Of a stretch of 26,971 bases of DNA, positions 2,870-26,813 are shown piece after piece. The first letter of the stretch is position 1; each line of letters opens with the position of its first letter. The translations under genes were made by a program, and so were the position numbers. Source of the DNA: a virus; the IMG/VR virus record IMGVR_UViG_3300030106_004401, positions 1 to 26,971 of that record. One strand, written 5' to 3'. The notes beneath the pieces were generated by a model. The model was not told the origin of the DNA, made no database searches, and saw nothing but the letters and a program-made list of their open reading frames with translations.

Positions 2870-3205
2870 ATGGCAATAGATATAGAAACTTCAGTTATAG
2901 CTTTACAAAACCCTGTAAGAAAATATGCCTTTAGTCTAAAAACTGATGCTAATGGTGAATTAGAAATGGGTAGTGATGGTAAGCCTATTAAAATTTTTAA
3001 TGTATTTGAAGACGACGGCACAACTAAGAGAACTACGATTGAATGTGACGTTAAATGGACTCATAGAACTGAAGCAGTTGGAGATATATGGGAACCTTTT
3101 ATGTGTACACCTTGGGATACAGCGGCGCACGGTCAAAAACTTTGGACTGATTTAAATAATGGAGTTTATGGAGCCATTGATGAATCAGATTTAGAGGGTT
3201 GGTGA
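2870..3205 (+). CDS. Hypothetical protein, end of + strand fibre run
   Basis: This 111-residue protein starts at ATG behind AAAGGAGATAAATA. I do not recognise the family. It is acidic overall, lacks signal peptide and membrane segments, and has a Trp-rich C-terminal half (KWTHR, DIWEPF, PWDTAAHGQKLW, ending DLEGW). Unlike the fibre proteins before it, it looks like a compact globular protein, so a fibre chaperone or assembly factor is possible but speculative. The last 40 bases are also the end of the convergent oxygenase gene on the other strand, leaving no space for a separate terminator. Confidence 0.65.
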   Translation: MAIDIETSVIALQNPVRKYAFSLKTDANGELEMGSDGKPIKIFNVFEDDGTTKRTTIECDVKWTHRTEAVGDIWEPFMCTPWDTAAHGQKLWTDLNNGVYGAIDESDLEGW

Positions 3206-3822
3206 TCCTCAAAAATTGTTGTAAAATTAAAAGATAAAGATCTTCTAATTCTATCTTTGTGTTTCAATTTAAAGGGCATAACAAAATGTTGATGACTAGC
3301 TTGAAAAATATAGAAATCACCTACAGCTGGTTGAAATGATATACAATTTTCACCATCCACAGTTGTAAAAGTCAAGCAACCATTCATAGATTCTTTATTT
3401 AAATTTGTTGGAGCAACAATTTCTGGTGTTTTTAAAAATAAAACAGTTGAGTAGCCAGAGGCCTTTTTTGTTACTGGGTCTATACGATGAACGTGAGGTG
3501 GGTTAAAATCACCCTCAACCATGTCATTTATCCACGCGCCATCTATATGATAATCTTTTATTGGAGTATTTTTACTTTTAAGTAAATGTGCTGTGTTTTG
3601 TACATAATCTTGCATACAAGAATACATAGAGTAAATTATTGGCACAGAAGATAACATATTCATAATATTGGTTTCTTCTTTTACATTACCCGCTAATTTA
3701 TGACTGAAATCTTGTAGAGTTGATTTTTTTGCATCAAATATTTCATTTAATTGATTTATTTCATCTATCTGTAGATGATACTTACCTATAACTTTTCCAC
3801 TAACTGTAAAATCTGCTTGCAT
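3166..3822 (-). CDS. 2OG-Fe(II) oxygenase-like protein (HxH type), copy 1
   Basis: This 218-residue protein has the pattern of the double-stranded beta-helix 2-oxoglutarate/Fe(II) dioxygenases, closest in style to the 2OG-FeII_Oxy_5 / TIGR02466 group. Visible parts are LAGNVKEE at about 43-50, a metal-binding segment GDFNPPHVHR with H110 and H112, the strand GYSTVLFLKTP, then GDFYIFQASHQHFVMPF with distal H179, and RRSLSFNF with R194 as candidate 2OG-binding arginine. The second ligand position is His rather than Asp/Glu. ATG follows AAAGGATAAAAT. It is closely related in layout to the oxygenase at 10742-11419. It ends by overlapping the convergent + strand gene by 40 bases. The substrate is unknown; family members hydroxylate proteins, nucleobases or small molecules. 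Confidence 0.8.
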   Translation of the reverse strand: MQADFTVSGKVIGKYHLQIDEINQLNEIFDAKKSTLQDFSHKLAGNVKEETNIMNMLSSVPIIYSMYSCMQDYVQNTAHLLKSKNTPIKDYHIDGAWINDMVEGDFNPPHVHRIDPVTKKASGYSTVLFLKTPEIVAPTNLNKESMNGCLTFTTVDGENCISFQPAVGDFYIFQASHQHFVMPFKLKHKDRIRRSLSFNFTTIFEDHQPSKSDSSMAP

Positions 3823-3839
3823 ATTTTATCCTTTCAAAA

Positions 3840-4403
3840 TTAATTTATATATTCAAACCAACCTGTTAAAATATATTTATCACCTTTTAACGAAGTATTA
3901 CCTCTGTGTACGTGTGTCCATGAGGCAGGAGCAATAATTAGTCTGCCTTCTTTTGGTTGCACTCTTTTATTTTGATACAAAAATTCTGTCTCTCCTCCTT
4001 CTTCAATATTATTTAAATACATTAAGAAAAATAATGCTCTGCTAGAATTTTGTAAACTTGAATTTTCACTATGCCAAATATGATAACCCTCACTAGGAGA
4101 AGTTTTTTGTAATTTAATATTTGGATTTAAAAAAATCTTTGATCCTGATTCAAAAGCTGTTTTATATCTTTCTACATAATCTAAAAAAGCAAGGTTAATA
4201 ATATTATGGAATTCATTTAATAAATTAATGTTAAAATTTAAGAGAGTGTTTTCTTGTTCTTGTAATAAATAATAATGACTTCCGGTGATTAATTTTTCGT
4301 CTTTGTTTCTGTTTATTAATTCTAAATTTTTTAAGTGATCAAAAACTTTTTTACAAAAAACATCAGTATTATCTATATCATACACTCCTATAAAATCTGT
4401 CAT
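3840..4403 (-). CDS. 2OG-Fe(II) oxygenase, prolyl-4-hydroxylase-like
   Basis: This 187-residue protein (from ATG at 4403) resembles the P4H-like 2OG-Fe(II) oxygenases. The core reads GYHIWHSEN with H111 and E113, RALFFLMYLNNIEEGGETEF at 123-141, then RVQPKEGRLIIAPASWTHVHRG with distal H166, and GDKYILTGW with K176 at the usual 2-oxoglutarate-binding Lys. The HxE in place of HxD is conservative. The open frame could extend 13 codons to a TTG at 4442, but that stretch (MTTNLWYSCKKKN) lacks family character and contains a TTGACA promoter-like box, so I prefer the internal ATG. Its sequence is visibly more A/T-rich than the tail genes. Protein hydroxylation is the usual P4H activity; the target here is not visible. 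Confidence 0.8.
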   Translation of the reverse strand: MTDFIGVYDIDNTDVFCKKVFDHLKNLELINRNKDEKLITGSHYYLLQEQENTLLNFNINLLNEFHNIINLAFLDYVERYKTAFESGSKIFLNPNIKLQKTSPSEGYHIWHSENSSLQNSSRALFFLMYLNNIEEGGETEFLYQNKRVQPKEGRLIIAPASWTHVHRGNTSLKGDKYILTGWFEYIN

Positions 4404-4412
4404 ATTCTTTTT

Positions 4413-4464
4413 TTTACATGAATACCATAAATTTGTTGTCAAGAAAACAATTTATAAAAATACT
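4413..4464. promoter_or_regulatory. Possible back-to-back promoters with overlapping -35 boxes
   Basis: On the + strand TTGTCA (4436-4441) lies 17 bases before AATACT (4459-4464), upstream of the small gene at 4530. On the - strand TTGACA (4442-4437) lies 18 bases before TGTAAA (4418-4413), just ahead of the P4H-like gene at 4403. The two -35 boxes overlap in the 7-base TTGTCAA. The -10 boxes are weak (4 of 6 matches), and the - strand transcript would have almost no leader. Confidence 0.3.
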
Positions 4465-4529
4465 ATTGCGAACGAAATAAATATGCTTAAATTAGGTTCT
4501 CACCAAAATTAAAAATCTAGGAGATAAAT

Positions 4530-4685
4530 ATGGATAATGAAGACACAAATAAAGCTATTGCTTATCTAGCAGACAAATTAAGTAAATTTCACTCAGAACT
4601 TTTAGCAGTTAAAAGAGACCTTGAGCGTCATATAAAAGACGCAGCTAACCATTGTCCTGATGATTGTGAATGTAGAAAGTCTTAA
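4530..4685 (+). CDS. Small hypothetical protein with Cys-rich C-terminus
   Basis: This 51-residue frame starts at ATG behind a strong CTAGGAGATAAAT site and stops with TAA at 4683-4685. It begins MDNEDTNKAIAYLADKLSKF, continues as a probable amphipathic helix with charged residues (LLAVKRDLERHIKDAAN), and ends HCPDDCECRKS with C42, C46 and C48, which could bind a metal or form disulfides. It is the only + strand gene in an 8.2-kb run of - strand genes. Its stop shares the four bases TTAA with the stop of the convergent gene at 4682-4936. The strong ribosome-binding site, clean helix and tight packing argue that it is real; the function is unknown. Confidence 0.65.
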   Translation: MDNEDTNKAIAYLADKLSKFHSELLAVKRDLERHIKDAANHCPDDCECRKS

Positions 4686-4936
4686 GATTTAGGGGTTTCA
4701 CCCAACATATCTTTTAATGATGGAGCAAATACTTTGACATCTCGTCTAACTTTTTCGACAGTTGTTGAAGTGTTTGGATCATCTATATCAGCTTGCATGG
4801 CTTCTTCAGATTCATATTCTTGACCAGTATCTATATTAGTAAGCGTTGTTTCTGTCTTAACATTGTATTTTGGAACAACCCTTCCATCTTCTAGGGTTAC
4901 TGTTCCTATTTGTTCAGCATCTTTTACTATTGGCAT
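4682..4936 (-). CDS. Hypothetical acidic small protein
   Basis: This 84-residue protein starts at ATG 4936, directly after the oxygenase stop at 4938, with GATGGAGAGAG as ribosome-binding site inside the end of that gene. It reads as a beta-rich N-terminal half (IGTVTLEDGRVVPKYNVKTE) followed by an acidic linker (YESEEAMQADIDDPN) and a basic C-terminal strand. I do not recognise a family. Being placed one base after the HxH-type oxygenase suggests coupled translation with it. There is no signal peptide or membrane segment. Its 3' end overlaps the small + strand gene by four bases. Confidence 0.65.
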   Translation of the reverse strand: MPIVKDAEQIGTVTLEDGRVVPKYNVKTETTLTNIDTGQEYESEEAMQADIDDPNTSTTVEKVRRDVKVFAPSLKDMLGETPKS

Positions 4937-4937
4937 T

Positions 4938-5516
4938 TTACTCTCTCCATCTTAAATTAAAACTTAAAATAATTCTATCTTGGTTTGAATTATTTTGTTG
5001 TACCTCATGTTGTAACCATGATGGAAAAAAAATCAAGTTATTCTCTTTTGCTTCCCATTGTACGCTATGAGCAAAATGTACAGATAGATCTTGGTTTTTA
5101 GGTGGATCAAGCACCTCTGATTGTGGTCTGGGTTCAATAAACACAAGATTACCGCTATTTTTAGGCACTTTAATATAATATACACCAGATAAAAAATTTA
5201 AAGGATGTGTGTGAACTGTATTTCTAGCACCTGGTGGATTTATCATACCCCATAATCCTGTCATTTCAGGGCCATATTTTCTCTCTACACTTAACGCATT
5301 AAAACATTCTTGTGCTTGAAACATAATGTCTTGTGTTATTTTTTCAAAACCTTCATGCAAATACAAATCTTCTTTGCTGTGCCACCCATTTACATTTGAT
5401 TTTGGTGATCCAACTTTATCTTGTTTTTGTAAATCATAAAGTTTTTGTTCTAAATTATAATCGTTTTGCAACTCTGTGGTGAACACAGGAGTAATAAACA
5501 TACCTTGCAATTTCAT
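4938..5516 (-). CDS. 2OG-Fe(II) oxygenase, 2OG-FeII_Oxy_5 / TIGR02466-like (HxH type)
   Basis: This 192-residue protein is the clearest member of this family in the window. The motif series is TGLWGMINPPGARNTVHTHP (87-105) with H102 and H104, LSGVYYIKVP (109-118), GNLVFIEPRP (122-131), then FFPSWLQHEV with distal H170, and RIILSFNLRW with R181. This order and the FPSWLxHxV signature match what I know of the family. The expected iron ligands are H102, the residue two later (His here rather than Asp) and H170; R181 would hold 2-oxoglutarate. ATG follows AGAAAGGAAAAAG. The substrate is unknown. Relatives are frequent in marine phages, usually near virion genes as here. Confidence 0.85.
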   Translation of the reverse strand: MKLQGMFITPVFTTELQNDYNLEQKLYDLQKQDKVGSPKSNVNGWHSKEDLYLHEGFEKITQDIMFQAQECFNALSVERKYGPEMTGLWGMINPPGARNTVHTHPLNFLSGVYYIKVPKNSGNLVFIEPRPQSEVLDPPKNQDLSVHFAHSVQWEAKENNLIFFPSWLQHEVQQNNSNQDRIILSFNLRWRE

Positions 5517-5528
5517 TCTTTTTCCTTT

Positions 5529-5912
5529 CTAAAGTTGACCTTTTGTAACCTCCATATCAGCTACAGTTATGTGAACTTGATTGGCTGCGTTAGCTTGTAC
5601 TTTCAACACGTCAGATTCTTGCAAGACAATCATGCCTCCAGTAATTCCGTCGTGCTGATTTAATAAATCCACCGTTGCTCCTGCAGCTATACTTTTTTGG
5701 TGAAACTGTTTAAATGTTGCAGAACTTCTAACTGTTTGTACATCCAAAAGTGTAGCACTACCAGAATCATTACAAACAATTAAAGATTTAATTATTATAG
5801 TAGTTGGCGGAACAGGTGGTGTAGCACCCGGATTAGCTGTTGGCACAGTTATTAAAGTTGTTAGGTCTGTCGAAGTGACATCCAACATAGGTCCTCTGAA
5901 TGTATTAGCCAA
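5529..5912 (-). CDS. Small beta-rich virion-type protein, TTG start
   Basis: This 127-residue protein has a Pro/Thr-rich segment NPGATPPVPPTT (28-39) followed by regular beta strands (TIIIKSLIVCNDS, HQKSIAAGATVDLL, ESDVLKVQA, QVHITVADMEVTKG). The pattern suits a small head- or tail-decorating protein, but I cannot name a family. The start is TTG at 5912, giving MANTFRGPML; GGAGA lies about 10 bases upstream, and the start overlaps the previous stop by eight bases (TTGGCTAA). The next in-frame ATG (codon 9) would drop the MANTF start and lose the coupling, so I favour TTG. It lies between a virion-type gene and the oxygenase at 4938. Confidence 0.7.
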   Translation of the reverse strand: MANTFRGPMLDVTSTDLTTLITVPTANPGATPPVPPTTIIIKSLIVCNDSGSATLLDVQTVRSSATFKQFHQKSIAAGATVDLLNQHDGITGGMIVLQESDVLKVQANAANQVHITVADMEVTKGQL

Positions 5913-6072
5913 GGAAAAATGTCTCCGATTCTGTTTCTTCTTTTAAATCTTGTTGATAGTTAGTATTTAATAAAAGTATAATTTGATCAAGTAATCTAAT
6001 CATTTGGTCAAACTGACCAGCATCATATTCTGGCGTTGCATTAGGTAATCTTGTTATCGTGATTTTAGCCAT
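5905..6072 (-). CDS. Small hypothetical protein
   Basis: From ATG at 6072 this encodes 55 residues beginning MAKITITRLPNATPEYDAGQ. A longer frame to 6108 exists, but the ATG at 6072 has an excellent TGGAGG site five bases upstream and yields an eight-base overlap (ATGGCTAA) with the upstream stop, so it is the likely start. After a beta-like start it has an amphipathic helix (FDQMIRLLDQIILLLNTNYQQDL) and an acidic tail (EETESETFFLG). Such helices can mediate coiled-coil assembly; the function is unknown. It lies between two virion-type genes and overlaps both by eight bases. Confidence 0.65.
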   Translation of the reverse strand: MAKITITRLPNATPEYDAGQFDQMIRLLDQIILLLNTNYQQDLKEETESETFFLG

Positions 6073-6751
6073 AAAAACCTCCATAAAATGGAAATAAAGA
6101 ACCAACACCTTCGCGATTTGGTTGAGATGCCATGTACATACCTTGTCCTCTGTTTCCTAGTAAGCTAGCAATACCATCCTCTAACCTATCTAATCTTTCA
6201 TTTAAACTAGAAAATTGTTTTTCAAAAGGATTTACACTGGCAACAGTCTCTGGTCCAGTAACAGTTACAGGAAGTGCTTTAGTGCCGTCTAACAAGGGTG
6301 GCGCCTGCACTCTCTCTTCATCGCCAGTTAAAACAGGTCTCCCTGCAAATAAATTTAGTGAATCATTAGGACCAGACACTTGAGCTAAAGGTTCAAATTG
6401 TTTTAGACTATTATCTGAAATCATATCTTCCTTACCTACCGATTTCATGTATGACACTAAATTGCCTATAAAGGAACCATTACCTGTAATAGGTAAACCA
6501 TTTATTTCTATTGTTCTAGAATCTTGTTGCATTTGATTTACGTTTTTAGCAAAATCAGATTGACCAAAACCATCTAATATTTCTTTAGTAACAGGGTTAG
6601 TATAAACTTCTGTTAAAGGTGGAGCGTCTTGTTTAGGAGGAAGAATAAGACCACCCGCTAAGGGATCAATTTTCGCGCCCATATTAGACATTTGCATTTC
6701 CCCTGTTAAACCACCAGCTAAAGGATTTTGATACATAGGTCCAGTAATCAT
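6065..6751 (-). CDS. Hypothetical virion-associated protein
   Basis: This 228-residue protein starts at ATG 6751, overlapping the end of the 614-residue tail gene by four bases (ATGA). The N-terminus has two near-identical phrases, NPLAGGL (9-15) and DPLAGGL (29-35). The middle is low-complexity and Pro-rich, a probable coiled-coil or helical heptad segment is at about 176-195 (FEKQFSSLNERLDRLEDGIA), and the tail is aromatic/Gly-rich (LFPFYGGFYG). There is no enzyme motif. Strict coupling to the tail gene suggests a tail or connector accessory protein. I do not recognise the family. Confidence 0.65.
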   Translation of the reverse strand: MITGPMYQNPLAGGLTGEMQMSNMGAKIDPLAGGLILPPKQDAPPLTEVYTNPVTKEILDGFGQSDFAKNVNQMQQDSRTIEINGLPITGNGSFIGNLVSYMKSVGKEDMISDNSLKQFEPLAQVSGPNDSLNLFAGRPVLTGDEERVQAPPLLDGTKALPVTVTGPETVASVNPFEKQFSSLNERLDRLEDGIASLLGNRGQGMYMASQPNREGVGSLFPFYGGFYG

Positions 6752-8592
6752 CTTCTACCGTCTGGTCTTAATTCTAATTTTTGTGAGCCTAATCTCCAAG
6801 GTGTATCATTAACTGTATTAGTTGTGTATCTAATTTTTACTGCTCTACCTCTACCTCTAACACTTACTTTTTCTGTGGTGCTAGTAATACTTGCATTCGA
6901 CGTAACATTAGAGGAGGATTGTGGGTATTGCTCTAATGTAAGTCTAGCCGTCATAGTGTTTGCTAAGTTAGTAAAATCAGGAACTAATTTATTAACAGAC
7001 ATTAATTGATCACCGTCTGCTATCTCAACAGAGCCTGTTTCTAAAAAAGCTGTGATTGCTGTGCCATCTGCTTGATTATTGCCAGACTCATGTTCGTATA
7101 TGAAAGAAGCACCGGATGTTAATCCTAAAATGGTAGAAACGTTAGCTGTGGTGCTAGCATTATATTCAGTAGCAATAGGTTTTTCATATACATAAGCACC
7201 AAGCCAAGTAGTTCTCCCTAAACTCAATGTGTACCAAGTGCCTTCTAAATAATTATATGCAACAGCCCTATCTATTTGAGATGCGTTTGCAGAGGGGTAA
7301 TACCAAATGATCTCATTGTAAGCTGTGTTCAATCCTACAGCTATATCATTTTTATTTGTATAACTAATGTCGTCAAAAACAAAATCTTGCACTGAACAAG
7401 GCATTTTTTTAACAACACCATCATATAAATAAAATGCATCATCAGACATCCAATAAGCTATGCCGTTGACTTCTATAGCTGCGTGTTGAGCTATGAGACC
7501 TGAATTTGCACCAAGCTGTCTAAGCCCAAAGGTAAAAGGCGATCCAACAAATTGAATGCCGTGTAAGGATGTATCTGTCCACACAAGTATTTGGCCGGCT
7601 GATTTAACAGCGCCAACAATTTTTGATCCATCTGATATACGTAAAGATCCTGCCTCATTGGTAGCGACTGGTGTAAAATCTGTTGCATCTTCTCTATCTG
7701 AAAATCTAAAAAATAAATCATCCTGTGAGGATTCAGTGCCTATTGTAGTCTCTGTGCCAAAAATCAACAAATGTCTTGTGTCTGTTGAAACAAGACTAAA
7801 TCTTGATGCGGTAGGAGCATTAGATAAAGCTGTTGCCCTTGTGCCTACTCCTGCAGAAGTGTCCCAAACAAAAGTACCTCCATCTAAGACAGTAGCTATT
7901 AGATCTTCACCAAAATTATCTAATGACCAGTTTCTTCCTGCAATAACAACATCAGATGCAGAGCTTGCAGTGCCCCAAGTGCCACTACTCCATGTGTCAG
8001 TGCCCCAACCTAATCCATATGTTGATGTAGCTGGTCCTACGTTTATTTGATATTTTGCATTACCTGATCCACCACCTCCGGATGTTGAACCAGATGCTGT
8101 GCTAGTATGTGTTACTGTATAATTATTTGCATCAGTTATAGAAGTTATTTCAAATTCTTGATTCATGTCCAAACCGTCTATTGATGAAAAAGAATCAAAA
8201 GTAACAAAATCACCAAGTTTTGCATTGTGTGTGGTATCTGCTACAGAAACAGTGGTTGTACCATTTGTTGTGAAAGGATTTGTTAAGGCCTGAGTTTCAC
8301 GAATTGGAGTTATGTCATATACGGCTCCTTCGTTATAAATGTATAATTTTCTGTCTGTACCCAAGGCTAAATATCGTAAACCGTCTAATCCCATCCATGA
8401 ATGCGAGTCTCTTACGACGCCGACTATGGTTCTATTAGGATTAGGTAAATTTGTCCAGCCACCCCATCTTTCTGGTTTTCCATAATGAAACCTAACAAAA
8501 TCAGAATCTATATATTTACGATCGTCACCGGCTGAATATGCTGTGTCTTGTTTATCTATTCCAGGTCTAAATTTTAAGTCTACTAGCTGCAT
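6748..8592 (-). CDS. Large tail hub / DNA-stabilisation-like protein (P22 gp10-like, tentative)
   Basis: This 614-residue protein has repeated beta-propeller-like strands: RFHYGKPERWGGWTNLP near the start, RYLALGTDRKLYIY at 73-86, and later AGQILVWTDTSLHGIQFVG and GIAYWMSDDAFYLYDG. The early FVRFxxGxPEKxGGW pattern and the WTDxSLxxMQYxG-like segment are what I associate with the phage tail stabilisation/hub proteins of the P22 gp10 kind. A Gly-Ser linker (SGSTSGGGGSGN at 168-178) and a Trp motif (GWGTDTWSSGTWG, 195-207) separate the two halves, and the C-terminus is basic (RRDGR-like). It probably forms part of the short tail below the portal. The next gene overlaps its stop by four bases, so both are likely co-translated. 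Confidence 0.7.
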   Translation of the reverse strand: MQLVDLKFRPGIDKQDTAYSAGDDRKYIDSDFVRFHYGKPERWGGWTNLPNPNRTIVGVVRDSHSWMGLDGLRYLALGTDRKLYIYNEGAVYDITPIRETQALTNPFTTNGTTTVSVADTTHNAKLGDFVTFDSFSSIDGLDMNQEFEITSITDANNYTVTHTSTASGSTSGGGGSGNAKYQINVGPATSTYGLGWGTDTWSSGTWGTASSASDVVIAGRNWSLDNFGEDLIATVLDGGTFVWDTSAGVGTRATALSNAPTASRFSLVSTDTRHLLIFGTETTIGTESSQDDLFFRFSDREDATDFTPVATNEAGSLRISDGSKIVGAVKSAGQILVWTDTSLHGIQFVGSPFTFGLRQLGANSGLIAQHAAIEVNGIAYWMSDDAFYLYDGVVKKMPCSVQDFVFDDISYTNKNDIAVGLNTAYNEIIWYYPSANASQIDRAVAYNYLEGTWYTLSLGRTTWLGAYVYEKPIATEYNASTTANVSTILGLTSGASFIYEHESGNNQADGTAITAFLETGSVEIADGDQLMSVNKLVPDFTNLANTMTARLTLEQYPQSSSNVTSNASITSTTEKVSVRGRGRAVKIRYTTNTVNDTPWRLGSQKLELRPDGRR

Positions 8593-9212
8593 TTGACCCA
8601 GTATTGTATACTAAATCTTTGTTGAGTAAAAGATACATCTTTTCCTGATTTTGATAAAATAGGTGTAATGCAATGATTAATATAACTAGGAAAAACTACC
8701 ATAAGATTATTCCTACTTGGAATCTCTACAATTTTACCCTCGTCCATAAATAACATATCTCCACCTTCTAGCTCGTCTCCTTCATTAATTATTAAATTAA
8801 AGGTAAAAAATTCAGTGTCACAATGCCAATCATAAAAGCCCCCATTGTTATAACAGACAACATGTATTTTTGCTTGTAGGTCTTTTTTTAAAAATTTAAA
8901 AACATTATCTCTGCCTGAATTTTGCAGGAAAGAAAAGAACCCTTGGTTATAAAATCTAGTGTTCAAACTTAGTATGTTCTCATTATTTTGAGGGGTCTCA
9001 CCAAAATTAATCCAATAATCAAAACCCCCGCATGATTTATTAAAAGCAGAATATTTTTCTTTTTGTTTTGTTAAGGTGTTAACCCCATACCATTCAGGCA
9101 TTTTAAATGCATTAATGTTTTTAATTAAATCATTTTGCACGTTTTCAAAAATAACAGGTGGTAAAAAATCTTTACAAATAATTATATTTTCCGAAACGTA
9201 TTCATATCTCAT
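8583..9212 (-). CDS. 2OG-Fe(II) oxygenase (HxD type)
   Basis: This 209-residue protein carries the classic 2OG-Fe(II) oxygenase core: GGFYDWHCDTEF with H130 and D132, FNLIINEGDELEGGDMLF (138-155), NNLMVVFPSYINHCITPI with distal H180, and QQRFSIQYWV with R199 as 2-oxoglutarate-binding arginine. The complete H-x-D...H...R set makes activity plausible. The N-terminal half has a FLPPVIFENV start typical of P4H-like relatives and a Cys/Gly-rich segment (KSCGGFDYW). It starts at ATG 9212, overlapping the glycosyltransferase stop by four bases (ATGA), and its end overlaps the tail gene start by ten bases. It is therefore in the same translational chain as the glycosyltransferase; shared substrate is an inference. 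Confidence 0.85.
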   Translation of the reverse strand: MRYEYVSENIIICKDFLPPVIFENVQNDLIKNINAFKMPEWYGVNTLTKQKEKYSAFNKSCGGFDYWINFGETPQNNENILSLNTRFYNQGFFSFLQNSGRDNVFKFLKKDLQAKIHVVCYNNGGFYDWHCDTEFFTFNLIINEGDELEGGDMLFMDEGKIVEIPSRNNLMVVFPSYINHCITPILSKSGKDVSFTQQRFSIQYWVKCS

Positions 9213-9988
9213 TTTTCGACTCCTTTAAACTGTGTACCAACATTACCTCTAAAAGCATAGTTGCCATAATGTGTCATGCCAGATAAAACATCAGCATAAA
9301 TTTTACCGCCCATGTTTTGCCATAAACGACAAAAAGCGTAATCCTCTGATAGATATCTTTTTGTTTGTGGTTCTATCATGGTATCAAAAAAAGCAAAATT
9401 CCAATCTGATGTTTTGTGATAATTAAATTCTGTTTCGTGCGATTGATTTATATGTTGATCAGGTTTAAATTGTAAATTTGGATAAACTTTAGCCATTCTT
9501 TTAAAAACTTCTTTTTTTATTAACATGAAACCTGTTGGGCCATCTAAGACCTCAATAAATCCATTTTCTAATAAAATTTTATCAGGGTCTTTTACATTTA
9601 AATTATATTGTAATGATGCTGCTAAAAGTTCATCTTCGGATATATCAGGATTTTCTTTCAATCTTTTCTTAACTTTCATCCAATCAATAGTTTTTCTTGG
9701 ATATATGCCAGTGACCACTTCTTTGTCATACTCTAACATTCTTACTACAGCATCCGGATTAAAAGCTAAATCGGCATCTATGAATAATAAATGCGTGTAG
9801 TTTCCATCCATGAATAATTGAACTAATGTATTACGAGCTCTAGTAATTAAAGACTCATTACCTATTGTTGCAAATTGTAATTCTATTTTATTTGCGGCTG
9901 CTAAAGATACTAATTGCATGCAGCTTTTAAAATATTCTGTGGTAATAAGACCGCCGTAACAAGGAGTTCCAACAAATACTTTATGCAT
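9209..9988 (-). CDS. GT-A type glycosyltransferase-like protein
   Basis: This 259-residue protein begins MHKVFVGTPCYGGLITTEYF, continues with NESLITRARNTLV (44-56), then THLLFIDADLAF with the D71-x-D73 metal/nucleotide-sugar motif of GT-A enzymes. Later it has FIEVLDGPTGFMLIKKEVF (144-162) and RYLSEDYAFCRLW (211-223), where E215/D216 occupy the usual catalytic-base region, plus H240 near the C-terminus. There is no membrane segment, so it is likely cytosolic. ATG 9988 is preferred over a start 36 codons upstream because it gives an eight-base overlap (ATGCATAA) with the preceding oxygenase and begins at the family's normal N-terminus. Donor and acceptor are unknown; candidates are virion proteins, host surface glycans or modified bases. 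Confidence 0.8.
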   Translation of the reverse strand: MHKVFVGTPCYGGLITTEYFKSCMQLVSLAAANKIELQFATIGNESLITRARNTLVQLFMDGNYTHLLFIDADLAFNPDAVVRMLEYDKEVVTGIYPRKTIDWMKVKKRLKENPDISEDELLAASLQYNLNVKDPDKILLENGFIEVLDGPTGFMLIKKEVFKRMAKVYPNLQFKPDQHINQSHETEFNYHKTSDWNFAFFDTMIEPQTKRYLSEDYAFCRLWQNMGGKIYADVLSGMTHYGNYAFRGNVGTQFKGVEK

Positions 9989-10490
9989 CTTTATAAAAAA
10001 TATTAAGTGTGTATCTGTCAGTGCTTTCGCCAAATGATTGTAAATCAGAATGCATAATTTTGCTACCATTAAAAAATAAAGCTCTATTTTCAACAAATCC
10101 TATGTGTGAAGATAATTGATTATTATTAGCAAAGCCCGTGCCATTATTAAATAATGGTTCACCTTTTACAAACAGTAAAAAATTAGCAACATTACCCTTG
10201 TAGGTGTCTATGTGAAACATTGGCTCTTTGTTATTTTTTCTTACGTGAGCGCTTACAGATATTGGCTCTAAATTTCTATTAGGAAAAAAATAATTTTTAA
10301 TTAATTTTAATAAAGGATCTGTGTGAAAACTTTTGGGAAATGTATGCCTTTTGCCATATGTGCGTCCGTGAGGATCATTAACTTCGGAATATTTTAAATT
10401 TATAAAAGTTTCTTGTAAAGATTCCAATGTTTCTATTGATAAAAAATTATCAACGTACATTACAAATTCAGTATTGCTATTGTGTTGCAT
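9981..10490 (-). CDS. 2OG-Fe(II) oxygenase-like protein (small, HxD type)
   Basis: This 169-residue protein reads VDNFLSIETLESLQ at the start, then EPMFHIDTYKGN with H93 and D95, NVANFLLFVKGEP (100-112), ENRALFFNGSKIMHSD with distal H147, and DRYTLNIFY with R159. The H-x-D...H...R order and strand spacing match small 2OG-Fe(II) oxygenases of phages. It is shorter than most, with a minimal N-terminal helix region. ATG 10490 overlaps the upstream gene by 14 bases, and its stop overlaps the glycosyltransferase start by eight, which makes these two genes the most closely coupled enzyme pair in the block. Substrate unknown. Confidence 0.8.
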   Translation of the reverse strand: MQHNSNTEFVMYVDNFLSIETLESLQETFINLKYSEVNDPHGRTYGKRHTFPKSFHTDPLLKLIKNYFFPNRNLEPISVSAHVRKNNKEPMFHIDTYKGNVANFLLFVKGEPLFNNGTGFANNNQLSSHIGFVENRALFFNGSKIMHSDLQSFGESTDRYTLNIFYKDA

Positions 10491-10758
10491 ACTCTACAGT
10501 TAAATATTCTATTTTTCTAACCCAGCCACGAGGTATAGATATAGCACCTCCACCATGATTATCATCTTTGTCTAAACACCATGATCTCATAATAACTATT
10601 TTATCATCATTATTAACAACCATATATCCAACCTCTTGACATACTGCTAGTGGAGCAGAAACAATATCTTTTATGTGCAACCAACCTGTTTCTGTATCTT
10701 TAGCATCATGCCACGTAATTCTTACCATAGGAAAAGGTGTATTAGATTTGTTGCTCAT
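10477..10758 (-). CDS. Hypothetical small conserved-type phage protein
   Basis: This 93-residue protein starts at ATG 10758 behind AAGATAAGG. The sequence MVRITWHDAKDTETGWLHIKDI, then APLAVCQEVGYMVVNNDDKIVIMRSW and IPRGWVRKIEYL, suggests a compact SH3-like beta barrel. I recall similar short proteins in cyanophages and other marine phages but no assigned function. It overlaps the preceding oxygenase by 17 bases and the following one by 14, so it belongs to the oxygenase translational unit and could be an accessory or structural partner. No catalytic motif is visible. Confidence 0.7.
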   Translation of the reverse strand: MSNKSNTPFPMVRITWHDAKDTETGWLHIKDIVSAPLAVCQEVGYMVVNNDDKIVIMRSWCLDKDDNHGGGAISIPRGWVRKIEYLTVEYATQ

Positions 10759-11419
10759 CCTTATCTTTTTTTCTTTTCACTTGTACATTAAAAGAAACAG
10801 ATCTTCTTTCTTCGTCTTGTGTCCTGAATGGATAAACCATATGAGATAGCCAAGAAGGAAAAAGATAGATGTCTCCTACTCTAGGTGTTGCTTGAAATGT
10901 ATGCCCATTAAAAGTTGCAGCTTGTCCACACTGCCATTGAATATCACCTACACAAGGAAAATGATCTTCATTTTCATATTCTTTTTTTAATCCTGGAGGT
11001 ATTCTTAAATATATTACACCAGACAAATCACCATCATGAACATGTGAAGGATTAAAATCGCCCGCCCACTGTGATACAACCCACATACTTGTGATAAGTA
11101 TTCTATCTACTTTATCCGGAGATATTGTATTGACCATAGGAGGTTGCTCTAAATATTTATGTATTATCATTTGTAAAGAATTACTCATGGCAGCAAACTC
11201 AGTAGATATCATCCACGCTGGAGGATATCTTACTTCTTGTTTTACATTACCTGCAAGATGCATTGAATGATCCCAATCCTTAGACATTTTTTCACTTTCC
11301 ATAATCTCAGTTGCTTTATCATCTAACAATTTAATTAAAGATTCAGGTAATGAACCTTTGAAGATTGTGGGACCAAACGGCCTAAAGGCCTGAAATTCGT
11401 GCTGTAACTTCTCTGCCAT
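10742..11419 (-). CDS. 2OG-Fe(II) oxygenase-like protein (HxH type), copy 2
   Basis: This 225-residue protein shows the TIGR02466-like series: MHLAGNVKQEV (53-63), GDFNPSHVHDGDLSGVIYLR (120-139) with H126 and H128, then RVGDIYLFPSWLSHMVYPF with distal H193, and ERRSVSFNVQV with R206 as likely 2-oxoglutarate ligand. LAGNVK, GDFNP(P/S)HVH and RRS(L/V)SFN are shared with the protein at 3166-3822, so the two are probable paralogs. The acid that normally follows the first His is replaced by His, with an Asp (D129) directly after. The C-terminus is a charged tail (KRKKDKDEQQI). ATG follows GAAAAGGAATAAAA. It is the first gene of the - strand block, read away from the divergent promoter region at about 11450. 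Confidence 0.85.
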   Translation of the reverse strand: MAEKLQHEFQAFRPFGPTIFKGSLPESLIKLLDDKATEIMESEKMSKDWDHSMHLAGNVKQEVRYPPAWMISTEFAAMSNSLQMIIHKYLEQPPMVNTISPDKVDRILITSMWVVSQWAGDFNPSHVHDGDLSGVIYLRIPPGLKKEYENEDHFPCVGDIQWQCGQAATFNGHTFQATPRVGDIYLFPSWLSHMVYPFRTQDEERRSVSFNVQVKRKKDKDEQQI

Positions 11420-25961: not shown

Positions 25962-26813
25962 CTAGAATTTCACGCCAGAAATTTCTTCAGCATCCTGTGC
26001 ACTATTAGAGTTTGGAGTGACATCAGCCATTTCCTCCTGCTGCTCTTCGTCATGATCTGGAGCTATTCCAACTTCCCCCTGCTGGAATGATTTAGCAAAG
26101 CTGATGCAGGATTCTAGGGTATCCTTATTTGATACCATATCGAGTCTTTCAATAACCCAACTATGTACAGGGTTACCACCGACTTGTTCTAATGTGGTAC
26201 CTAACTTGTATATAAACGAATAACTTGGTGGATTTTGAATGACTCTACCAGCTACCTTTAGAATAGCAGTCTTTTGCATATACAACCACATTCTACTTTT
26301 TTTCATCTGTGAAACTTTCATAGTGATCAAAGCTTTAGATAGCGGTAGGTCATCTTCGTCTAGAACCACAACCAAATGATTCGCAACCTCTTCAATGTAA
26401 TTACCATTAGGTAGATAATTTAAATTATCTTTTTCATCCTTTTTGGTTTTACTCATTATGTCAGATGTTGCAGGATAAGTATTAACAGGTGCTTTTCTTG
26501 AAGTCTGTCCTCTCTTCTCCCACTCAACATAATTTCTAAAAAACTCACAAGGCACAACACGTATGCCCGCCTCGCCGTCAAATGTTTCTTTGTTAGCTTT
26601 ATTAATTATATTGCCTGGCGTATTACCTTTTACTGTCTTGTCACTAATTTCTGGTGACATAGGTTGTAAGATTTGAAACCTAGGTATTAGTATATCTTGG
26701 GTGGTAACATTACCTAACCCATCTCCAACGTTTTGTATTATTAATTCTAATGCCTCATCTACTTCAGCTACTGCTGTAGATTTTTTAGTGGCAGGTACTC
26801 CTTTAGTTGCCAT
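25962..26813 (-). CDS. Probable ssDNA-binding / replication accessory protein
   Basis: This 283-residue protein starts at ATG behind TAGGAGGTCATC. The N-terminus (MATKGVPATKKSTAVAEVDE) is followed by mixed alpha/beta sequence with strands such as IRVVPCEFF, HLVVVLDEDDLPLSKALITMKVSQM and SYSFIYKLGTT, consistent with an OB-like core though not decisive. The C-terminus is strongly acidic (DHDEEQQEEMAD) and ends GVKF: an acidic tail with a terminal Phe is the hallmark of T7 gp2.5-type and other phage ssDNA-binding proteins. Its place directly upstream of the primase, helicase and polymerase supports this. The family is not firmly recognised, so an unrelated replication accessory factor is possible. 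Confidence 0.6.
   Translation of the reverse strand: MATKGVPATKKSTAVAEVDEALELIIQNVGDGLGNVTTQDILIPRFQILQPMSPEISDKTVKGNTPGNIINKANKETFDGEAGIRVVPCEFFRNYVEWEKRGQTSRKAPVNTYPATSDIMSKTKKDEKDNLNYLPNGNYIEEVANHLVVVLDEDDLPLSKALITMKVSQMKKSRMWLYMQKTAILKVAGRVIQNPPSYSFIYKLGTTLEQVGGNPVHSWVIERLDMVSNKDTLESCISFAKSFQQGEVGIAPDHDEEQQEEMADVTPNSNSAQDAEEISGVKF

Follow-up and report, generated by a model that had tools for sequence, protein, structure and literature searches.

Among the pelagiphages of the HTVC023P type, eight distinct, non-orthologous genes for 2-oxoglutarate (2OG)-Fe(II) oxygenases have been described, which are often neighbours and often lie beside one or two "ferrochelatases" (2022; PMC9599517), and seasonal enrichment of the oxygenases and "ferrochelatases" has been reported in a time series (PMC11561400). 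Cyanophage S-SCSM1 carries 24 oxygenase genes in a genome of 229 kb (PMC9602691), and in the hypervariable islands of marine phages, Fe(II) oxygenases rank with tail fibres and lectins as some of the most frequent genes that can be identified (PMC3909814). Here, we analysed IMG/VR record IMGVR_UViG_3300030106_004401, a 26,971-base fragment referred to below as the window, in which six genes for oxygenase-fold proteins (A–F) stand in one block among tail genes. As such clustering has been published for the HTVC023P-type pelagiphages, the block adds one more, tightly packed case to a known kind, and the novelty lies in a map of its conserved frame and exchangeable slots, the correction of two family labels, and a three-histidine site in A, C and F.

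The window shares with HTVC023P, HTVC027P and 023Pt_psg01 a block with several non-orthologous oxygenases beside a homologous tail protein (S), as well as homologous PolA and glycosyltransferase-like (GT) proteins. Compared with the sets of the HTVC023P-type isolates, A–F mostly belong to other orthologous groups, are denser and lie on the strand opposite to the flanking virion genes. The T4-like cyanophage sets, as in S-SCSM1, comprise the same Pfam types (PF13640 and PF13759) with low identity among copies, F being 26–32% identical to cyanophage and pelagimyophage proteins. In contrast to the cyanophage genome, however, the window has six such genes of a podovirus-like genome packed into a block of 8 kb. 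All six open reading frames (ORFs) are intact, with an ATG start, a single terminal stop codon and no internal stops, and encode the following:

A, 3166..3822, minus strand: PF13759 oxygenase-fold protein with H110, H112 (HxH), H179 and R193; accessory, beside tail-fibre genes, 26 orthologues.
B, 3840..4403, minus strand: PF13640 oxygenase with an HSE motif; accessory (slot), orthologous group of 7 members.
C, 4938..5516, minus strand: TIGR02466/PF13759 oxygenase-fold protein with H102, H104 (HxH), H170 and R181; conserved frame.
D, 8583..9212, minus strand: PF13640 oxygenase with H130, D132 (HxD), H180 and R199; accessory (slot).
E, 9981..10490, minus strand: PHD/P4H-like oxygenase with H93, D95 (HxD), H147 and R159; conserved frame.
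F, 10742..11419, minus strand: PF13759/TIGR02466-type oxygenase-fold protein with H126, H128 (HxH), H193 and R205; conserved frame, 40 orthologues with an invariant site.

The start of B was set at the ATG at position 4403, a mechanical ORF with a TTG start extending to 4442. No oxygenases beyond A–F were found in the record.

That A–F are oxygenase-fold proteins is almost certain. Searches of PHROGs matched A, C and F to phrog_81 (E-values of 7e-22, 2e-37 and 4e-31, respectively), B and D to phrog_61 (6e-39 and 2e-10), and E and D to phrog_274 (2e-10 and 4e-10). Five of the six exceeded the curated cut-off of 27 bits for PF13759 or PF13640 (A, 34.5; B, 42.4; C, 87; D, 36; F, 71.4), and C, at 121 bits, also exceeded the cut-off of TIGR02466. 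Gene E had no match in the Pfam search, and a tblastn search of 50,697 phage records likewise returned none. A single-sequence search of the PDB gave chance matches only, so profiles and a fold search were needed for its identification. Its AlphaFold2 model, with a predicted local distance difference test score (pLDDT) of 91.9, matched the folds of the HIF prolyl hydroxylase PHD2, bacterial P4H, AlkB and EasH in the PDB, and a profile built from 40 relatives had OGFOD1 as its top PDB match (E-value of 3.4e-5). The double-stranded beta-helix fold is thus indicated for E by the model and the fold search, and for A, B, C, D and F by Pfam models. PHD2, bacterial P4H and OGFOD1 have the same fold and HxD...H...R site as E but are only ~10–16% identical to it, and the window lacks a collagen-like substrate.

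The active-site residues are invariant in each of the six orthologous groups. In B, D and E, these include the HxD/E...H metal triad, with H93, D95, H147 and R159 of E unchanged in the alignment of relatives down to 17% identity. The Arg/Lys that follows the distal histidine, at the 2OG-binding position, is invariant as well in orthologues, and nearly so across the phrog_81-type proteins discussed below. Purifying selection acts on all six genes, the median ratios of non-synonymous to synonymous substitution (dN/dS) being 0.47 for A, 0.32 for B, 0.19 for C, 0.23 for D, 0.11 for E and 0.24 for F, compared with 0.08 for S and GT. Gene A evolves fastest, and the invariant charged or histidine residues among its 26 orthologues (E50, H110, H112, H179, R193 and R194) are essentially the active site. 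The H-x-[DEH]...H...[RK] motif was rejected as a detector: its loose form occurred in 26 of 179 unrelated ORFs and in 185 of 350 shuffled sequences. As the motif alone is weak evidence, the oxygenase claim rests on families, structure and conservation. The first-pass annotation of this DNA, which had proposed six oxygenase-like genes at these positions and a structure or profile check of each protein, was thereby upheld, with PHROGs for the set, Pfam for five, and structure and profile for E. Its claim of an H-x-(D/E/H)...H...(R/K) core in each gene was right as to the residues present, with the reservation that A, C and F have HxH instead of HxD/E, but is weak evidence for their identity when taken alone.

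In all 178 phrog_81-type phage proteins, comprising A, C, F and their relatives, HxH...H replaces the HxD/E arrangement, and the arginine at the usual 2OG-binding position is retained in 174. Since HxH is also present in cellular relatives and in PDB entries 2rg4 and 3bvc, the site is a trait of the family rather than the result of decay in phages. These TIGR02466/PF13759 bacterial proteins, which were matched by profile to C, F and A and share HxH...H...R, are themselves without an assigned function, and A and F score below the TIGR02466 cut-off. As this site differs from HxD/E, "2OG oxygenase" is for A, C and F a name based on fold; they lack the HxD/E...H triad and, on sequence grounds, are classed only as PF13759-type oxygenase-fold proteins. 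They may not be 2OG enzymes at all and may instead bind iron through their three histidines for a different kind of O2 chemistry, in the manner of cysteine dioxygenase, so that the block would mix two chemistries. The invariance of HxH...H in the phage proteins and its presence in the cellular ones would suit this explanation, which we nonetheless consider rather unlikely, given that the 2OG-position arginine is so widely kept and that the region aligns with canonical members, the second histidine of HxH lying over their aspartate. Outside phages, 11 phrog_81-family matches were found in the metagenome-assembled genome bin107 of a gammaproteobacterium (CP070833.1), an expansion whose members, where read, have HxH.

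For comparison of the block across phages, 80 IMG/VR relatives were gathered by means of S, and iterative profiles retrieved 368 oxygenase ORFs. A set of 21 contigs spanning the region, namely the window, five annotated phages and 15 IMG/VR relatives, contained 0–11 oxygenases per block (mean 5.5), with 3–11 in the 15 IMG/VR relatives and none counted in the region of DSL-LC04 and Roseobacter phage CRP-901, both of which have S. The gene order among relatives is F-X-[variable]-E-GT-[D or others]-S-[variable]-C-[B or others]-A. Downstream of S, C was present in 39 of 44 contigs; upstream, F, E and D were found in 27, 25 and 10 of 43, respectively. The GT-like protein was more than 60% identical in 75 relatives. 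The conserved frame thus consists of F, E, C, the GT-like gene and the tail gene S, and the exchangeable slots are those of A, B, D and others. Clustering of the 340 complete homologues at 50% identity gave 62 groups, as a rule with one member per contig, and the best match lay within the same contig for one pair only, which argues against recent tandem duplication as their source. Exchange from a pool shared among related phages is the better reading of the slot turnover. In the longer relatives (a 50.6-kb IMG/VR contig, HTVC023P, HTVC027P and 023Pt_psg01), the oxygenase matches are unscattered and confined to one block of ~5.5 kb. Taken together, the locus is very probably a modular bank of separate oxygenases.

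This survey of gene neighbourhoods in marine virus data, another check that the first-pass annotation had suggested, agreed with it on the setting among tail genes and on the presence of several types without simple tandem duplication, the best identity between any two oxygenases of the window being 30% (A and F). Its view that the concentration is unusual did not hold for phages of this kind, in which close relatives have comparable numbers in the same block. It had also named as a refutation that related phages carry as many single copies scattered in the genome; they do carry as many, but not scattered. The multi-step hydroxylation system that it envisaged is not favoured either: the accessory members are gained and lost independently of one another, pointing to independent enzymes rather than a pathway.

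Two features of other relatives touch on these enzymes. In a related phage, a DUF6817 (HD-like) domain is fused to a PF13640 oxygenase domain (L064:9439-10320). A 167-residue protein adjoining the block, HTVC023P gp64 (L087:6542-7045) or URG13116 (L085:7826-8329), resembles an oxygenase core by eye in its C-terminal part, without the histidine motif, and is possibly a catalytically dead copy.

The other genes of the block are:

S, 6748..8592, minus strand: tail/virion "stabilization" protein (phrog_3287, 7e-78), around which the block is built.
GT, 9209..9988, minus strand: glycosyltransferase-like protein with a DxD-like motif (phrog_1574, 4e-41; weak PF00535, 0.005), overlapping E and D.
X, 10477..10758, minus strand: conserved 93-residue protein, unassigned (phrog_25889, 1e-10), found in 51 related ORFs and overlapping F by 17 and E by 14 nucleotides.

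The homologue of S in DSL-LC04 is annotated as a stabilization protein. Successive genes from F through X, E, GT, D and S to three small genes overlap by 17, 14, 8, 4, 10, 4, 44 and 8 nucleotides, which ties three oxygenases (F, E and D) to the GT-like and tail proteins. In minus-strand order, C follows the third small gene after 12 nucleotides and an 84-residue gene comes 1 nucleotide further on; a gap of 278 nucleotides then precedes B and A, which adjoin convergent tail-fibre genes. Promoter and terminator scans gave predictions not above chance, so a single transcript is only inferred.

Tail and internal virion genes on the plus strand flank the block on both sides, and replication genes lie beyond it, at 20–27 kb of the window. 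The closest annotated phages are DSL-LC04, 023Pt_psg01, HTVC027P and HTVC023P (38–46% identity in S and 46–52% in PolA). A nucleotide search against annotated phages returned no match. Judged by its PolA and tail-protein homologues and by the way the gene block is laid out, the window comes from a relative of the HTVC023P-type pelagiphages, an HTVC023P-like marine podovirus, of whose genome it is a fragment. The G+C fraction of B, E, D and A is 0.26–0.31, compared with 0.35 for the window, in which no RNA families or tRNA were found. A homologue of gp34 of phage Pam3 (PF23977, 136 bits) is encoded at 25962-26813, upstream of the primase and on the same strand. A relative whose S is 80% identical lies on contig CACGTA010000011.1 of the single-cell genome AG-910-K03, from an uncultured marine alphaproteobacterium, and shares the layout, with five oxygenase-fold genes; a DUF6065 protein stands among them. 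This contig provides a lead to the host, bearing in mind that free particles can be co-sorted.

The "ferrochelatases" reported beside pelagiphage oxygenases belong to phrog_2954, which includes HTVC023P gp67 (L087:8295-8915) and 023Pt_psg01 URG13120.1 (L085:10057-10713). None of 31 phrog_2954 members matched the ferrochelatase family in Pfam, and HxD and the distal histidine are invariant in the group, the 2OG-binding Arg/Lys position being less clear. The predicted structure of one member (L074:4894-5520; pLDDT of 83.4) had as its top PDB fold match the Pseudomonas putida P4H with EF-Tu, and other prolyl hydroxylases, as well as a viral collagen prolyl hydroxylase, were also among the top matches; ferrochelatase was absent from the first 50. 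A PDB profile search with the group found no significant match, a single-sequence search with the HTVC023P "ferrochelatase" found chance matches only, and the hhalign comparison with E was weak, so the assignment rests on the predicted structure together with the invariant HxD and distal histidine. On this basis, phrog_2954 looks like an oxygenase-fold family, not a ferrochelatase, and the published oxygenase-ferrochelatase pairing is in all likelihood an annotation artefact, with oxygenases standing beside oxygenases. Similarly, no endonuclease V match in Pfam was obtained for 40 members of phrog_274, the family of E, whose "DNA endonuclease V" label looks wrong, as the fold of the E model and the profile point to an oxygenase. 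A partial literature search found no report of either relabelling.

In the explanation that we favour, these separate Fe(II) oxygenases constitute a modular bank within the tail-gene module, in which F, E and C, with the GT-like protein and S, form the standing frame, and A, B and D occupy slots filled from the shared pool. As to function, the enzymes would be produced late in infection, together with the tail proteins, and each would hydroxylate its own protein side chain, likeliest on phage tail or adhesin proteins, as parallel one-step enzymes and not as a pathway. Some of the hydroxyls might then be glycosylated by the neighbouring GT-like protein, and swapping oxygenases would retune the virion surface. 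We put forward this entire scheme tentatively, as somewhat short of an even chance. Within it, a protein substrate is moderately probable, the nearest solved relatives of E (PHD2, P4H and OGFOD1) being mostly protein hydroxylases. A virion target, tail or adhesin, is the likeliest single option, if still a tentative one, followed by host proteins or the host surface; it is suggested by the tail-module location, the overlaps with S and GT, the PHD/P4H-like fold and the slot turnover beside tail fibres. Several observations weigh against this proposal. Strict Gly-X-Y runs of at least 3 triplets were absent from the 16 neighbouring proteins of this fragmentary record, and the neighbouring virion proteins are low in proline. 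S does not need the oxygenases, as it is present in relatives with one or none (DSL-LC04 and CRP-901). A PHD/P4H-like fold also occurs in small-molecule and nucleic-acid enzymes, EasH and AlkB being among the fold matches of E, and A, C and F, with their HxH site, may not even use 2OG. A search of the literature for hydroxylated proline in phage particles turned up nothing relevant. The most specific form of the proposal, in which a fixed core of HxD and HxH oxygenases modifies tail adhesins with the GT-like protein while accessory exchange alters the surface and host recognition, is improbable.

Precedents for host targets are a bacterial P4H, which binds EF-Tu, and OGFOD1, whose substrate is a ribosomal protein. 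The enzymes of the block might likewise be directed at the host, either at translation factors or ribosomal proteins or at surface polysaccharide or lipid, to the benefit of phage protein synthesis or the exclusion of competing phages. OGFOD1 as the top profile match of E and the EF-Tu-associated P4H as the top fold match of the related "ferrochelatase" group are in keeping with such targets, and turnover near the tail fibres would equally fit an arms race at the host surface. These matches, however, are at the level of fold, and 10–16% identity is too little to define a substrate; moreover, a position in the tail module is unlike what early host takeover would need; we regard host targets as possible but doubtful.

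The nucleobase target also raised by the first-pass annotation, whereby phage DNA would be modified along the lines of TET/JBP or thymidine hypermodification systems, is disfavoured and very improbable. Some clades of HTVC023P-type phages do have a thymidine hypermodification gene pair (PMC9599517), and AlkB is a fold match of E, but no TET/JBP or AlkB Pfam model matched A–F at E-values up to 1, the genes lie with the tail genes and far from the polymerase and primase, and oxygenase content varies among phages of one group. There is similarly little to commend a role mainly in consuming 2OG or altering the nitrogen or iron state of the host, which was proposed for cyanophages (PMC3037559) and would agree with the increase in host iron and nitrogen genes upon HTVC027P infection (PMC12753301). 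A simple drain would not require six distinct, separately conserved active sites, half of the six may, given their HxH site, not use 2OG, and the "ferrochelatase" on which the iron link would rest looks like one more oxygenase, which makes this role highly unlikely.

For the modular bank, the slot map singles out three conserved enzymes, C, E and F, and the three-histidine site, which is strictly conserved in the PF13759 type, poses a testable chemical question about a family that occurs in bacteria as well as in phages. The relabelling of phrog_2954 and phrog_274, at the strength given above, would remove the iron-metabolism reading of the published data (PMC9599517, PMC11561400) and raise the true oxygenase count in HTVC023P-type phages.

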